Shown piece by piece: positions 1-4,755 of a stretch of DNA of 64,000 bases; the stretch's first letter is position 1, and every line of letters begins with the position of its first letter. The translations under genes were made by a program, and so were the position numbers. The notes beneath the pieces are model-generated. The model had not been told where the DNA came from, did no database searches, and saw only the letters and a program-made list of their open reading frames with translations. The DNA is from Nonomuraea antri (GTDB taxonomy: Bacteria; Actinomycetota; Actinomycetes; Streptosporangiales; Streptosporangiaceae): NCBI RefSeq assembly GCF_013283785.1, contig NZ_JABCPZ010000013.1:1-64000 (forward strand), written 5' to 3'.

Positions 1-299
1 TCGATCACCGGCGACTCCACCTTGGCCAGCCCGCCCACCGCCACCACGCTGAGCACCAGGTTCTTGACCGGGCCCTCGATGAGCATCTTCATGATGATCG
101 CCACGACCCCCACCAGCGTGGCCGCGACCGCCACCACCACGACGACGGCCATCATCGCCCCGATGGACCGCGTCCGCAGCCGCCACATGGCCCAGACGCC
201 CAGCAGCGCCACCAGGAACCCCAGCCCGGCGGTGACCGCCACGATCATCCCGAGATCACCCATCGCCGCCTGCGGCGCCCCATCCGCGGCCGCGGTCAC
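1..299 (-). CDS. Sensor histidine kinase, N-terminal part (cut by window edge)
   Basis: Read leftwards from GTG at 299 the frame is open to the edge (about 99 codons). It encodes two hydrophobic segments (about residues 15-35 and 47-70) separated by a short Arg-rich loop, WRLRTRSIGAMM, which fits the membrane part of a sensor kinase. A GGGGG tract 6-8 bases upstream can act as ribosome binding site. It lies 60 bases downstream of an OmpR-type regulator on the same strand, the usual regulator-kinase order. The kinase core (HisKA, HATPase) is outside the window, so the assignment rests on the membrane segments and the neighbour. Confidence 0.6.
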   Translation of the reverse strand, partial: MTAAADGAPQAAMGDLGMIVAVTAGLGFLVALLGVWAMWRLRTRSIGAMMAVVVVVAVAATLVGVVAIIMKMLIEGPVKNLVLSVVAVGGLAKVESPVI

Positions 300-359
300 A
301 CCACACCCCCGGGCCCGCTCACGTCACGCCCCAAAGCACGCCGCACCCCGCAGGCCCGG

Positions 360-1058
360 TCACGCCGCGCTCTCCAGCGGTTCGTACCGGTAGCCGACCC
401 CCCAGACCGTGACGATCCTGCGCGGTTCCGTCGGGTCGCGCTCGATCTTCTCCCGCAGCCGCCGCACGTGCACCGTCACCGTGGACGAGTCGCCGAACGA
501 CCACCCCCACACCTGGTCGAGCAGCGCCGACCGGCTGAACGCCTGCCTCGGGTTGCGCATCAGGTAGGCCAGCAGGTCGAACTCCCTGGCCGTCAGCATC
601 ACCTCGGCCCCGCGCAGCCGCACCTCGTGCGCGCCCACGTCCACGAGCAGGTCGCCGTCGCGCAGCACGCCGGTGCCGCCTGTGACGGACGCGCCGCGCG
701 CCCGACGCAGCACGGACTGCACGCGCAGGGCCAGCTCGCGCGGGCTGAACGGCTTGGTCACGTAGTCGTCGGCGCCGGTCTCCAGGCCGACGACGCGGTC
801 GATCTCCTCGCCGAGCGCGGTCAGCATGATCACCGGCACCGGCCAGCGTTCCCGCAGCTTCCTGCACACCTGCAGCCCGTCGATCTTGGGCAGCATCAGG
901 TCGAGCACCATCAGGTCCGGCGGGCGGGCCAGCGCCCTGCGCAGCGCCTCCGCGCCGTCGCCGACGCACTCGACCTCGTGCCCGTCGCGCTCCAGATACC
1001 GCGCCACGACCTCGGCCACGGTCGGATCGTCGTCGACCACCAGGATGCGCGTGTTCAC
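360..1058 (-). CDS. OmpR-family response regulator
   Basis: 232-aa two-domain DNA-binding response regulator. The receiver domain (about 1-120) shows the acidic cluster D9-D11, phospho-acceptor D53 in LVVDDD/VLDLMLP context, T80 and K102 (TKPF). The C-terminal winged helix (about 135-228) has the OmpR/PhoB signature LTAREFDLLAYLMRN and ends GVGYRYEP. It starts at ATG 1058. It is followed on the same strand by the sensor kinase at 1-299, with which it should form a two-component system. The signal and target genes cannot be told from the sequence. Confidence 0.93.
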   Translation of the reverse strand: MNTRILVVDDDPTVAEVVARYLERDGHEVECVGDGAEALRRALARPPDLMVLDLMLPKIDGLQVCRKLRERWPVPVIMLTALGEEIDRVVGLETGADDYVTKPFSPRELALRVQSVLRRARGASVTGGTGVLRDGDLLVDVGAHEVRLRGAEVMLTAREFDLLAYLMRNPRQAFSRSALLDQVWGWSFGDSSTVTVHVRRLREKIERDPTEPRRIVTVWGVGYRYEPLESAA

Positions 1059-1172
1059 GACTTCACGGTACGGCGCGGCGCGCCGAATCCGTCAGACACG
1101 TCACCGGTTCGTAAGCCTCCTTCAGGCCCCCGTCCGGCCGGTAAAAACCTCGCAGCCCGCGCCCCGACGACG

Positions 1173-1178
1173 TACGGT
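1173..1178 (+). promoter_or_regulatory. Leaderless-type -10 box before the 57-aa gene
   Basis: TACGGT followed by exactly six bases and then the ATG at 1185; transcription would start at or next to the A of ATG. No Shine-Dalgarno sequence and no clear -35 hexamer. The same TANNNT-N6/7-start arrangement recurs many times in this window. Confidence 0.4.
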
Positions 1179-1184
1179 GGCCCC

Positions 1185-1358
1185 ATGGGTAAAGTCGTGA
1201 TGCTCGCCTTAGGCACCCTGCTCGGTGCGTTCGTGCTGTTCAACTTCCTGCTTCCGATGCTGGGAGTGCTGCTGAAGGTCGCCCTGATCATCGCGGTGAT
1301 CGGCGTGATCGTCTTCGTCGCGGTCAACGTGGTCGGCAAGTCCTCGCGATCCTCGTGA
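1185..1358 (+). CDS. Small two-helix membrane protein
   Basis: 57 aa, almost entirely hydrophobic: two predicted membrane helices (about 4-24 and 27-50) joined by a Pro-containing turn, ending GKSSRSS. I do not recognise a named family. The ATG at 1185 is chosen because it follows a -10-like box at leaderless distance and the hydrophobic stretch begins there. Its stop overlaps the next start (GTGA at 1355-1358), so it is translationally coupled to the 66-codon gene and sits at the head of the transcript leading to the YidC-family insertase. Both may be YidC clients or modulators (inference). Confidence 0.6.
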   Translation: MGKVVMLALGTLLGAFVLFNFLLPMLGVLLKVALIIAVIGVIVFVAVNVVGKSSRSS

Positions 1359-1555
1359 CCCTGTTCGTTCTCGATCCGTGGCTGGCCGGGGTCACCATGA
1401 TGGCGATCCTGCTGCTGGTCATGTGGGCGGCGGCGCTGCTGCCCGCCCTCGGCGGTGAGCCGTCCGGCTTTCCGCTGATCTACGCGCGCCGTACGGCGTT
1501 CCAGCGCCAGCGCGATCCTGACGCGTCCGGGCGTTCGCGTCCTCGCGCACCCTGA
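1355..1555 (+). CDS. Single-TM small protein ending in Arg-Ala-Pro; candidate arrest peptide upstream of YidC
   Basis: 66 aa starting at GTG 1355, overlapping the previous stop. One membrane helix (about 10-31) is followed by a polar, Arg-rich 35-residue tail ending SRPRAP and a stop codon. It resembles the small membrane proteins found beside yidC in actinomycetes (DUF6412-like, from memory). The helix-to-C-terminus distance is about one ribosomal exit tunnel, and the C-terminus matches the start of the RAPP/RAPG motif reported for actinobacterial arrest peptides upstream of protein-localization genes. The stop codon lies five bases before a hairpin that is mutually exclusive with a structure controlling the next start. 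It could be an ordinary membrane protein; the arrest role is inference. Confidence 0.65.
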   Translation: MTLFVLDPWLAGVTMMAILLLVMWAAALLPALGGEPSGFPLIYARRTAFQRQRDPDASGRSRPRAP

Positions 1556-1637
1556 CCTGCCCCGCTTCCTCCTCAGAAGCGGGGCTCAGACTCATGAGCC
1601 CTGAAATCTCACCCTGAATTCCGAAAGGGAAGGGCTC
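1556..1637 (+). promoter_or_regulatory. Alternative-hairpin leader of the YidC-family gene
   Basis: Three interlocking pairings are visible. Hairpin 1: CCCCGCTTC (1560-1568) with GAAGCGGGG (1576-1584), nine perfect pairs. Hairpin 2: GGGCTCA (1582-1588) with TGAGCCC (1595-1601), which shares 1582-1584 with hairpin 1. Hairpin 3: TGAGCCC (1595-1601) with a second GGGCTCA (1632-1638), which covers the end of the purine-rich ribosome binding site and the A of the start ATG. If hairpin 1 forms, 1595-1601 is free to block the start; if hairpin 1 is held open by a ribosome at the upstream stop, hairpin 2 can form and free it. There is no U-tract, so a plain terminator is less likely. Confidence 0.6.
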
Positions 1638-2288
1638 ATGATCGATTCTCTCGTCACGTTCGTCATCGGCATGTCCGGCGGCAGCGCCGCGCTCGGCATC
1701 GTGCTGTTCACCCTGGCGGTACGCCTGTTGCTGCTGCCGCTCAGCGTGCGCCAGGCCCGTACGTCCAGGCTCAGGGAGAAGCTCGCCCCGAAGCTGCTCG
1801 AACTGCGCAAGCGGTACGCGCGCAACCCCGAGCGCCTCACCAGGGAGATGAACGCGCTCTACGCCAAGGAGGGCACGTCACCGTTCGCCGGCATCGGCGC
1901 CGGGCTGGCGCAGTTGCCTTTCCTGTGGCTGATGTACCAGGTGGCGACGCACCCGACCGCCCTGGCGGGGCAGCAGTTGCTGGTGGCGCCGCTGGGAGAG
2001 CAGGCGGCGGGCGTGATCGCCCATTACGGTCTGATCAGCTTGCCAGTTTCGGTCTTTGCGGTCGTCATCGCGTTGCTCGTGGTCGTGGCCTGGTTGTCGG
2101 CCCGCAGGATGAAGGCCACGATGCCCGACGGACAGCCCGAAACGATGCGGAAACTTCTGCCGCTGATGCCGTTCGGCGCCGTGCTGGCCGCGGCCGTGCT
2201 GCCGCTGGCGGCCGCGCTCTACCTGCTGGTCTCCACGGCCTGGACGTTCGGCGAGCGGGTCGCGCTGTATCCGCGACCGGCCGCCTGA
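1638..2288 (+). CDS. YidC/Oxa1-family membrane protein insertase (short paralogue)
   Basis: 216 aa. Inserts or folds membrane proteins, alone or with SecYEG. Visible features: an N-terminal helix, then the basic cytoplasmic region RLLLLPLSVRQARTS...LREKLAPKLLELRKRYARNPERLTREMNALYAKEG typical of the YidC coiled hairpin, then GIGAGLAQLPFLWLMYQVA and two to three more helices. The conserved Arg within the first hydrophobic groove helix (AVRLLLLPLS) is present. It is shorter than the main YidC found beside rnpA/jag, lacks a long C-terminal tail, and so looks like a second paralogue. It starts at ATG 1638 behind GAAAGGGAAGGG, within a switch-like leader. Confidence 0.88.
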   Translation: MIDSLVTFVIGMSGGSAALGIVLFTLAVRLLLLPLSVRQARTSRLREKLAPKLLELRKRYARNPERLTREMNALYAKEGTSPFAGIGAGLAQLPFLWLMYQVATHPTALAGQQLLVAPLGEQAAGVIAHYGLISLPVSVFAVVIALLVVVAWLSARRMKATMPDGQPETMRKLLPLMPFGAVLAAAVLPLAAALYLLVSTAWTFGERVALYPRPAA

Positions 2289-2294
2289 ATTGAC

Positions 2295-2735
2295 CTAACC
2301 GGCCTCCCTGAGTGCGGCCACCTGCCCGTTCGCCGAGTTCACCGACCCGTTGGGCGCGGGCAGGATGGCCCACACGGTGGTCGTGTCACCGTCGTGCCGT
2401 ACCCCCCAGCTCTCCGCGACGTACTCGACGATGCCCAGCCCCCTGCCTCCGAGCGACGACAGGGTCGGGCGTCCCGCCCGCGGCTCGGTGGCCGCGCCCC
2501 CGTCGCTGACAGCGACCTCGATGTGGTCGTCGCTGCGTAGCCAGGCGACTCTCACCATGCCTGACGGCAGCGGATGCGCGTGCCGCAGCGCGTTGCTCAG
2601 CAACTCGCTCACCACCAGCACGGCATCGTCGATCGCGGCCGAAAAAACCCCGCTGTCCTGCAGATCAGTGCTCAGACGCTGGCGGGCAACGGCGACGCTG
2701 GACGGCGCGTACGGCAGTAGCACCACGCTTGACAC
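2295..2735 (-). CDS. RsbW/SpoIIAB-like ATP-binding protein (HATPase_c_2)
   Basis: About 146 aa. Has the GHKL ATP-binding elements of anti-sigma-factor kinases: N-box ELLSNALRHA, G1 region VSDGGA and G2 loop GGRGLGIVE. Such stand-alone ATPases in actinomycetes act as serine kinases or anti-sigma regulators, but the substrate is unknown. The frame begins at GTG 2741, where a GGGGAGG ribosome binding site would touch the start; GTG 2735 gives normal spacing and is preferred. Its upstream neighbour on the same strand is a large PAS-GAF-PAS histidine kinase, so the two may be read together from the 140-base gap. No sigma factor or STAS antagonist lies nearby. Confidence 0.85.
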   Translation of the reverse strand: MSSVVLLPYAPSSVAVARQRLSTDLQDSGVFSAAIDDAVLVVSELLSNALRHAHPLPSGMVRVAWLRSDDHIEVAVSDGGAATEPRAGRPTLSSLGGRGLGIVEYVAESWGVRHDGDTTTVWAILPAPNGSVNSANGQVAALREAG

Positions 2736-2877
2736 ACCCACCTCCCCGCTCCCTGTGCCCCCCGCGGGAACACTCCCCGGTACGACCGAAATGCCCCGTT
2801 ACTCGATCCCAGAAACCGCATCTCGATCACAGCTTGTACACATTGGACGATAGATCAGCGCAACCGTGACCACCTCG

Positions 2878-4755
2878 TTACCGCGTCGGTGTGTCGGATC
2901 CGATAGGGGATGCGCACCTCATCACGAGACGCAGCCGAGTGCCGCCACCTGGCCTTGGATGTGCGCTTACGTCGCCTCCCTGAGCTCTCGCCAGACTGCG
3001 GACGATATAGAGACCTAGTCCCACTCCACCAAACCGTCTCCGATCGCCGCTGTCCACCTGTACGAACCGCTCGAAAATCCGTTCACGATCCGTGGGAGCG
3101 ATCCCGACACCTTCGTCGTCGACGACCACGACCGCCGTATCTTCTTCGCGCCAGGCCTCGACCCGGATCAGCCCGCCCTGCGGCGAGTACTTGAACGCGT
3201 TCTCCAGCACCTGGCCGAGCACGATGTCGGTGGCCAGCGGATCGCCCAGCACCCGCGGCAGGTCGTCGGCCACGCGCACCTCGACCCGGTGCTTGTCCGA
3301 CAGCACGGGCAGCCCGAGCGTGGCCACGTCGATCCGCTCGGCCAGGTCGAACGACTCGATCCGCACCGCCAGCTCGTCCGCGCCGGCCCGGGCGCCGAGC
3401 AGCAGGTGGTCCATGAGCCCGCCCAGCGACCTGGACCGCTCGGCGATCGTGCGCACGGCCGAGCGCCGCTCGTCGTCGCTCAGCTTGTCCCAGCGCGAGT
3501 CGAGCGTGCTGGCGAACCCGCGCACGATGGTGATCGGCGTGCGCAGCTCGTGGCTGGTCGTGGCCAGGAACAGGTCCTTGGCCTCCTCCAGTTCCTTGGC
3601 CGCCGTCACGTCGCGGAAGTCGATGACGACCTCGCCGGTCTCCTCGATCCCGGCGCTCACCACGTCCAGCCAGCGGCCGGATTCGAGCTGGAAGGTGCGC
3701 TTCTCCCCCGGGCCTGGCAGCGGGAACGGCGGCGGCCCGCCGATCACGGCGGCGGCCGCGTACCCGGTCAGATCGACCGCGGCCGGGTTCCACCGCAGCA
3801 CGCGCCCGGCCTCGTCGAGCACCGCGATGCCGTCGGCGCTGGCGTCGAACACGGCCCGTTCGTGCGCCCGCTGCCGCACCGCCTCCTGGTAGGCCACCGC
3901 GTTGCCGGCCGCGATGCCCGCGTGTCCTGCCAGCAGTTCGAGCAGTTCCAGTTCCAGGTGGCCGGGCTTGCGCCGGGCGAACAGCGCGTACAGCGCGCCG
4001 TAGGGCCTGCCGCCAACCGCGGCCAGGCCGAGCGCGATCGTGTGCAGCCCGGTGAGCCTGGCCCACACCAGGTCGCCGAGCCCTTCCGACTCCAGCATGA
4101 CGGTCTTGCCGGTGCGTAAGAGTTTGTCGACCAGGCTCGTGCGCAGGTCTCTGGTGGTGCCTCTGAGCTGGTCGGGCAGCTGGTAGGTGCTGACCAACCG
4201 GAGCTTGTCGCCCTCGATCAGGACGAAGCCGCCGGCGTCCGCGCCGGTCAGCTCGGTCAGGCTGGCGGAGATGCGGTCGAGGACGGCGGGCAGCTCCAGC
4301 TCGGCGTTGATGTCGCCGACGACGTCGGTGAGCCTGCGCACGAGCCTGGCGCGGCGGGCCATGCGGCTCTTGGCCGCCTCCTCGGCCTGGGCCAGGTGGT
4401 GCACGCACACGTAGCCGGCCACCGAGTTGCCCAGGCGCAGCGCGCTGATGTCCACGCGCACGTCGAGCAGGACGCCGTCGCTGCGCAGTCGCTTGGTACG
4501 CAGGGACACGCTGTTCCCCGCGCCGCCGGTGCGCACGCGTTCGAGCACCGCGTTGTGCTCGGCGGTCAGCTCGCCGGGCACGATCGGCGCCCTGCGCCCC
4601 AGCATGTCGGCGGCCGGCCAGCCGAACAGCCGCTCGGCGGCGGCGTTCCAGACCAGCACGCTCTGGTCCCGGTCGAGCGCCACCACCGCGTTGGGCGAGC
4701 TGGCGAGCACCGCGCGGGCGATCTCATCGTCACTACCGGCCCATTCATCCCCCAC
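2878..4755 (-). CDS. PAS-GAF-PAS soluble histidine kinase
   Basis: 625 aa from GTG 4755; the frame extends further upstream but would run into the divergent ogt gene. Order: PAS (about 10-115, FGWPAADMLG), GAF (about 135-280), second PAS (about 290-390, RWNPAAVDLTGY), HisKA with H402 in TTSHELRTPI, and a HATPase domain with N-box ENAFKYSP, G1 DDEGVGIAP and G2 GVGLGLYIVRSLA. No membrane helix is seen, so it should be cytoplasmic and sense a soluble or bound signal. It has no adjacent response regulator, making it an orphan kinase. GGAGG sits only one base from GTG 4755, so the exact start is uncertain. Confidence 0.88.
   Translation of the reverse strand: MGDEWAGSDDEIARAVLASSPNAVVALDRDQSVLVWNAAAERLFGWPAADMLGRRAPIVPGELTAEHNAVLERVRTGGAGNSVSLRTKRLRSDGVLLDVRVDISALRLGNSVAGYVCVHHLAQAEEAAKSRMARRARLVRRLTDVVGDINAELELPAVLDRISASLTELTGADAGGFVLIEGDKLRLVSTYQLPDQLRGTTRDLRTSLVDKLLRTGKTVMLESEGLGDLVWARLTGLHTIALGLAAVGGRPYGALYALFARRKPGHLELELLELLAGHAGIAAGNAVAYQEAVRQRAHERAVFDASADGIAVLDEAGRVLRWNPAAVDLTGYAAAAVIGGPPPFPLPGPGEKRTFQLESGRWLDVVSAGIEETGEVVIDFRDVTAAKELEEAKDLFLATTSHELRTPITIVRGFASTLDSRWDKLSDDERRSAVRTIAERSRSLGGLMDHLLLGARAGADELAVRIESFDLAERIDVATLGLPVLSDKHRVEVRVADDLPRVLGDPLATDIVLGQVLENAFKYSPQGGLIRVEAWREEDTAVVVVDDEGVGIAPTDRERIFERFVQVDSGDRRRFGGVGLGLYIVRSLARAQGGDVSAHPRPGGGTRLRLVMRCASPIGSDTPTR

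Follow-up and report, generated by a model that had tools for sequence, protein, structure and literature searches.

The window, a stretch of 64,000 nucleotides of Nonomuraea antri (NZ_JABCPZ010000013.1), carries close to its beginning three genes on the forward strand: an ORF for a small membrane protein of 57 aa (1185-1358), an apcA-like gene with a GTG start for a putative arrest peptide of 66 aa (DUF6412; 1355-1555), and yidC2, the gene of a second YidC/Oxa1 insertase (1638-2288). The yidC2 product matches PF02096 with 100.7 bits and TIGR03592 over its cut-off, and the genome's other, stronger YidC-family match lies on contig C537. The stop codon of the 57-aa ORF overlaps the apcA start (GTGA), and this upstream ORF is kept in the genus, a similar one being found just 5′ of apcA in all 34 genus loci examined (of 52); its hydrophobic product gave no Pfam or NCBIfam match over the cut-off.

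An earlier note on this DNA, made from its letters, had pointed to a 66-codon ORF with one hydrophobic stretch and an R-A-P end immediately before a YidC/Oxa1 gene, and to interlocking RNA pairings between the two; the observation is real as a whole, and ORF, YidC gene and pairings were all recovered. The C-terminal region of the peptide matches PF19950 (DUF6412) with 40.7 bits (cut-off 26.9), and its homology to ApcA and DUF6412 relatives is also seen in an alignment with 22 relatives. A relative from Rhodococcus rhodnii (L176) has the same C-terminus with RAP-Gly (RDPDAAGRPRPRAP-Gly). Kyte-Doolittle hydropathy, the one measure used here, gives a single hydrophobic stretch peaking at residues 10-29, and the last proline stands about 35 residues beyond it, the tail length that the note had given. 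By this measure the peptide has the N-terminal membrane helix and the short tail to the arrest site that characterize ApcA of Rhodococcus erythropolis, which likewise is encoded before yidC2, has an N-terminal hydrophobic segment and ends in RAP (Sakiyama 2021, PMC7897499; Fujiwara 2024, PMC10987492). Arrest at RAP has been shown for Rhodococcus ApcA, with the proline of RAP in the P-site (PMC7897499). This literature, together with the conservation of RAP, places the predicted arrest site of the window at 1544-1555, with the proline codon 1550-1552 in the P-site and TGA 1553-1555 in the A-site. The A-site codon of Rhodococcus ApcA is Gly and occasionally Ser (PMC7897499), whereas in the window it is a stop. 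Since RAP* is already listed among the motifs of the published ApcA cluster (Fujiwara 2024, PMC10987492), a RAP-stop end is not in itself a novelty, and a stop codon in the A-site is no bar to membership in ApcA, which by homology we regard as firm; the available text of that paper holds no arrest test of the RAP* form that we could see. That DUF6412 is ApcA we infer from gene position and the RAP motif, our literature search having found no mention of DUF6412.

yidC2 is present in all 54 Nonomuraea genomes, with ApcA upstream in 52. In each of the two remaining loci (L081 and L086, one assembly each) a deletion takes the end of apcA, the leader and the yidC2 start together and leaves remnants of both genes. 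These were the only genus loci without a peptide by our finder, which accepted only peptides having one of R, Q, H and K followed by P where RAP is expected, so that others would escape it. R, A and P are identical in all 52 genus peptides, although each is written with 3-4 codons within each of two classes, defined by the codon after RAP: a stop in 31 (TAG 24, TGA 4, TAA 3) and Ser in 21. The kinship with RAP arrest peptides suggested by the note holds through the DUF6412/ApcA family; the RAP-stop end is not universal even within the genus. On a quick tree of the YidC2 proteins (n = 52; 20 of the 49 inner branches weak) the Ser/stop state changes twice, and the change may have had a single origin. 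No A-site stop was seen in 96 family loci from other genera, drawn mostly from the better-scoring of 198 such genomes with a match, nor in the 21 named loci outside Nonomuraea.

Between apcA and yidC2 lies a leader in which three mutually interfering hairpins can form. Hairpin 1 (1559-1585), which we call the relay, pairs segment 1 (1559-1568) with segment 2 (1576-1585); hairpin 3 (1594-1639), the masking hairpin, pairs segment 3 (1594-1602) with segment 4 (1631-1639) and covers the end of the Shine-Dalgarno sequence (SD) and the AUG of yidC2; hairpin 2 (1580-1603), the anti-masking hairpin, pairs 1580-1588 with 1595-1603 and excludes both others. Hairpins 1 (1:2) and 3 (3:4) against the alternative hairpin 2 (2:3) constitute a four-segment RNA switch. 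All three pairings of the earlier note exist, with the SD end and AUG covered as it said, each being slightly longer than it had given, and the distance from the stop codon to hairpin 1 is 3 bases instead of five.

The leader is conserved throughout the genus, with the letters GCCCCGCTT..AAGCGGGGCTC..GAGCCC..GGGCTCATG in common. An RNA model and alignment were built from 45 of the 52 leaders, leaving out four with inserts (L010, L012, L065, L066) and three without hairpin 1 (L083-L085). The model matches at the locus in 49 of the 54 genus genomes, 4 of them outside the training alignment, so that the C-terminus (52 of 54 genomes) and the leader pairings are both conserved, and the outcomes on the sequence level that the note named as refuting its reading did not occur. 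It matches none of 287 other genomes of the family, a search whose filters can lose weak matches, and among 394 genomes across the class it found 3 genus members and two weak matches of 28.7 bits in another family. One of the latter (L200) is an intrinsic terminator and not the switch. Among the leaders with inserts, L066 (genome G203) has, after its RAP-stop and before the switch, extra tandem hairpins resembling hairpin 1, and L010, L012 and L065 (G026, G021 and G205) have long inserts with additional GAGCCC/GGGCTC-like repeats, G026 giving two matches to the RNA model. A search of positions 1-4000 of the window against Rfam (E up to 1) gave no match in the leader; its single match (224-267), away from the leader and below the gathering score, was set aside as chance. 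Transcription attenuation was likewise rejected, as there is no terminator-like site in 1000-1700. In the article text consulted we found no prior account of this leader.

In the 45 aligned sequences, 98.8% of the cells of hairpin 1 are paired, and 87.8% and 92.4% of those of the two parts of hairpin 3. In these two hairpins 3 pairs show compensatory changes, compared to 0.9 in shuffles, and 16 of 500 shuffles give a count as high as 3. We dropped covariation as the main proof because the leader letters vary too little; with so few compensatory changes, it is the conserved letters that carry much of the weight. For hairpin 2, the fold energy lies on average 4.15 kcal/mol below that of interior shuffles in 49 leaders (p ≤ 0.05 in 17, median p 0.07), and the apical helix has 2.8 pairs compared to 2.1 in shuffles; an offset-by-offset test in 44 leaders was weak, with a lowest p of 0.037 among six offsets.

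The position of hairpin 1 is tied to the peptide. With the first base of the RAP proline codon counted as 0, hairpin 1 starts 10 nt further on in 45 of 49 leaders, in the Ser and the stop class alike, at 9 nt in two others (the window included) and at 5 nt in the last two. This distance is kept while segment 3 and the AUG drift, the first segment-3-like motif standing 40-62 nt away in 47 leaders (78 and 114 nt in the other two) and the AUG of yidC2 68-158 nt away. Segment 1 is coding in the Ser class and non-coding in the stop class, and its position is kept nonetheless.

These observations bear on the view that the RAP-stop form has lost its arrest, in which case synthesis of the peptide would simply end after the proline and YidC2 would be held by the leader at a constant low level. 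In its published form, the RAPP mechanism acts on, and needs, the amine of the A-site prolyl-tRNA (PMC10951233), which a stop codon does not supply. A RAP-stop peptide would therefore need some other means of withstanding release factors, indeed both of them, because TAG, TGA and TAA all occur; furthermore, with only about two Ser/stop changes on the tree, the persistence of the stop form does not amount to many independent events. Against such a loss, RAP and the upstream motif RDPDAAGR are invariant or nearly so in the 31 stop-type sequences despite synonymous drift, and the relay hairpin keeps its place in them although it is non-coding there. Termination arrests, moreover, are known from CliM of C. 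difficile (PMC13183943) and from NSP-stop and NAP-stop peptides (PMC10987492). We consider lost arrest unlikely, and a stall with the stop codon in the A-site the better reading.

To gauge the effect of such a stall on the leader, the mRNA was treated as covered as far as a chosen front edge of the ribosome, numbered as above, and the energy needed to open the yidC2 start (AUG-14 to AUG+2) was computed under a thermodynamic folding that ignores kinetics. The toeprint of a stalled ribosome lies at about +15. Over the 52 leaders this opening cost averages 13.0 kcal/mol for edge 0, falls to 9.3 for +15 and returns to 12.2 for +36. The mean drop at +15 is 3.6 kcal/mol compared to 0.03 when the sequence that separates the A-site codon from the SD is shuffled, and the mean rebound past the stall is 3.1 compared to -0.4. 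With 100 shuffles per leader, the drop reaches p ≤ 0.05 in 35 leaders, 16 of them at p ≤ 0.01, and falls short in 17; since the leaders are related, these counts are not independent tests. Five leaders (L004, L005, L010, L031 and L074) are weak or contrary, with a drop under 1 kcal/mol, and when the free state is taken by itself, only 17 of the 52 leaders are more closed than their shuffles (p ≤ 0.05). In the window the cost goes from 19.4 (edge 0) to 11.2 (+15) and back to 20.1 kcal/mol past the stall; among 2000 dinucleotide shuffles, 2 attain this drop and none the closed-open-closed shape. The logic put forward in the note, in which a ribosome at the stop codon blocks hairpin 1, hairpin 2 forms and the YidC start opens, is accordingly reproduced in silico. 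For the Ser class, a ribosome at the true stop codon would stand at +36 in 16 of the 18 leaders with hairpin 1, where the mean cost of the class is 12.4 kcal/mol and the start is closed again; in the other two it would stand at +33 (L079) and +51 (L080), outside the scanned positions. In the stop class, termination and the predicted arrest fall at one spot.

The same calculation distinguishes a relay from the simpler arrangement known from MifM, where the stalled ribosome itself holds the masking strand open. When segment 2 is barred from pairing, the start stays closed under a parked ribosome (mean 12.8 compared to 9.2 kcal/mol, 49 leaders), the opening being undone by more than 1 kcal/mol in 45 of the 49; when segment 1 is barred without any ribosome, the stall is mimicked (9.1 compared to 12.6 kcal/mol), again in 45 of the 49. 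The model therefore predicts a relay. Direct unmasking is the predicted arrangement of a group of leaders labelled g51 and of three Nonomuraea leaders without hairpin 1, but in the window the masking strand (1594-1602) begins 44 nt past the first base of the P-site codon, well beyond the +15 edge, and on average over the 49 leaders with hairpin 1 a parked ribosome does not open the start once segment 2 is barred. For these leaders we regard direct unmasking as very improbable and keep to the relay, a strong prediction of the model.

Leaders without hairpin 1 number 96, of which 93 come from other genera and 3 from Nonomuraea. In 34 of them the strand likeliest to pair with the yidC2 start occupies nt 6-13, counted as before from the proline codon, and would lie under the stalled ribosome; the mean pairing probability of this strand is 0.33, compared to 0.06 after shuffling, and it is about 0.87 in g51 but close to zero in the g76 group. 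The pairing is near 0 also in the 49 Nonomuraea leaders that have hairpin 1, where the mask lies at about nt 42-57. The group labels are hand-made (L131, a g75 leader, is counted in g56, and L048, a g61 leader, is counted in g76 for the masking-strand survey), and the yidC2 starts of other genera were chosen by a script from SD likeness and may be wrong in places. On this footing, a parking effect at p ≤ 0.05 (40 shuffles each) was found in 19 of the 93 other-genus leaders, including 7 of the 8 scanned in g51, and in none of 25 in g76 or 12 in g79; we therefore rejected the idea of a switch common to all ApcA loci. In g79 the likely masking strand is under the ribosome (0.69 at nt 9-11), and other pairings take over at +15. 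Three leaders of g56 (L138, L149 and L150) have a strong parking effect, with drops of 6-7 kcal/mol, unlike most of that group.

The masking letters differ by group. A predicted direct mask in g51 (L106-L111, L151-L153) pairs GGAAGCC, at nt 6-12, with GGCTTCC; L088 has GAGCCC with GGGCTC, L093 GTGAGCCC with GGGCTCAC upstream of the script-chosen start, and L138 and L150 have AGGCCCTT:AAGGGCCTT. The three Nonomuraea exceptions, L083, L084 and L085 (G029, G006 and G031), have, soon after RAP, a strand that pairs at the region of the yidC2 start or immediately 5′ of it, in L084 ATCGCACTCC with GGAGTTGTGAT. That some leaders of other genera keep the masking geometry with different letters speaks against another account, in which the hairpins bind a protein or small RNA, or govern mRNA stability, and the peptide has a role apart from them. 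The segment letters in Nonomuraea are nearly invariant, beyond the needs of pairing, as such an element would have it, but the closed-open-closed profile by ribosome position and the requirement for segment 2 would be unexpected; we hold this account to be quite improbable beside a switch read by the ribosome.

Taken as a whole, the explanation that we consider quite probable is that the ORF encodes an ApcA-type YidC-monitoring peptide whose stall at RAP opens yidC2 through a relay RNA switch; the peptide would probably stall the ribosome that makes it whenever membrane insertion is impaired. The N-terminal helix would be a substrate of YidC, while the basic C-terminal tail ending in RAP would sit in the exit tunnel, and the ribosome would halt at RAP while the stop codon occupies the A-site. 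The front edge of the stalled ribosome, at about nt 1565, would cover most of segment 1; segment 2, released from hairpin 1, would then pair with segment 3 as hairpin 2, segment 4 with the yidC2 SD and AUG would be freed, and YidC2 would be made. Insertion of the helix by YidC would pull the chain and relieve the arrest, termination would be completed and the ribosome would leave, upon which hairpin 1 would re-form, segment 3 would mask yidC2 and expression would stop. If true, the switch turns on a backup membrane-insertion gene when insertion falters.

As to the way in which ApcA controls yidC2, the comparison suggests an answer: in about one third of the examined leaders without hairpin 1 the yidC2 start would be masked by a strand under the stalled ribosome, and Nonomuraea would have evolved a relay. 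Judging from this distribution, direct masking would be the older state and the relay the derived one, and the likeness of segments 1 and 3 and of segments 2 and 4, together with the tandem hairpins of L066, suggests that the switch grew by duplication. We lean towards a history in which an elongation-arresting ApcA became a termination-arresting RAP-stop form in Nonomuraea, the relay replaced direct masking, possibly via duplication of anti-SD and SD, and a force sensor came to drive an erm-type attenuator. With RAP-Ser and RAP-stop forms occurring naturally in one genus, one can ask directly whether the conformation of RAP holds off release factors besides preventing peptide-bond formation.

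Among known systems, the peptide family has been described before, and the relay switch looks new. RNA prediction gave no SD-masking hairpin for ApcA, ApdA and ApdP, and a mechanism distinct from SecM and MifM was proposed for ApcA (Sakiyama 2021, PMC7897499), whereas Nonomuraea has a conserved four-segment switch; in a mutagenesis study of ApcA (EMBO J 2025, PMC12992588) we found no occurrence of "stop codon" or "termination" in the text available. MifM-yidC2 of Bacillus and CliM-yidC2 of Clostridia share the logic of YidC monitoring and of a stalled ribosome relieving SD masking, and CliM of C. difficile arrests with a stop codon in the A-site, as predicted for Nonomuraea (PMC13183943). The earlier note had the locus work in just the manner of MifM, which goes too far: compared by description, MifM and CliM use one stem-loop held open by the ribosome (PMC13183943), while Nonomuraea places a relay hairpin between. 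The uDF_RQH_Enterobacterales-secDF2 system resembles it in a RAPP-like arrest peptide and two predicted stem-loops before the target gene, but there the disruption of stem-loop 2 is direct, and the available text describes no alternative helix (PMC10987492), where Nonomuraea has the alternative hairpin 2. In its logic the leader resembles the erm-type attenuator, with mutually exclusive 1:2 and 3:4 versus 2:3 pairing gated by the stall of a leader peptide, an arrangement found here in silico. The ermC leader follows the same attenuator logic as ermB. In the ermB leader, a stalled ribosome breaks one helix, an alternative helix forms and the downstream start is freed (PMC8274638). The signal of the erm attenuator is a macrolide, whereas that of Nonomuraea would be the membrane insertion of a nascent peptide, and by its folding model the Nonomuraea leader appears to work like an erm-type attenuator without being a member of that class.
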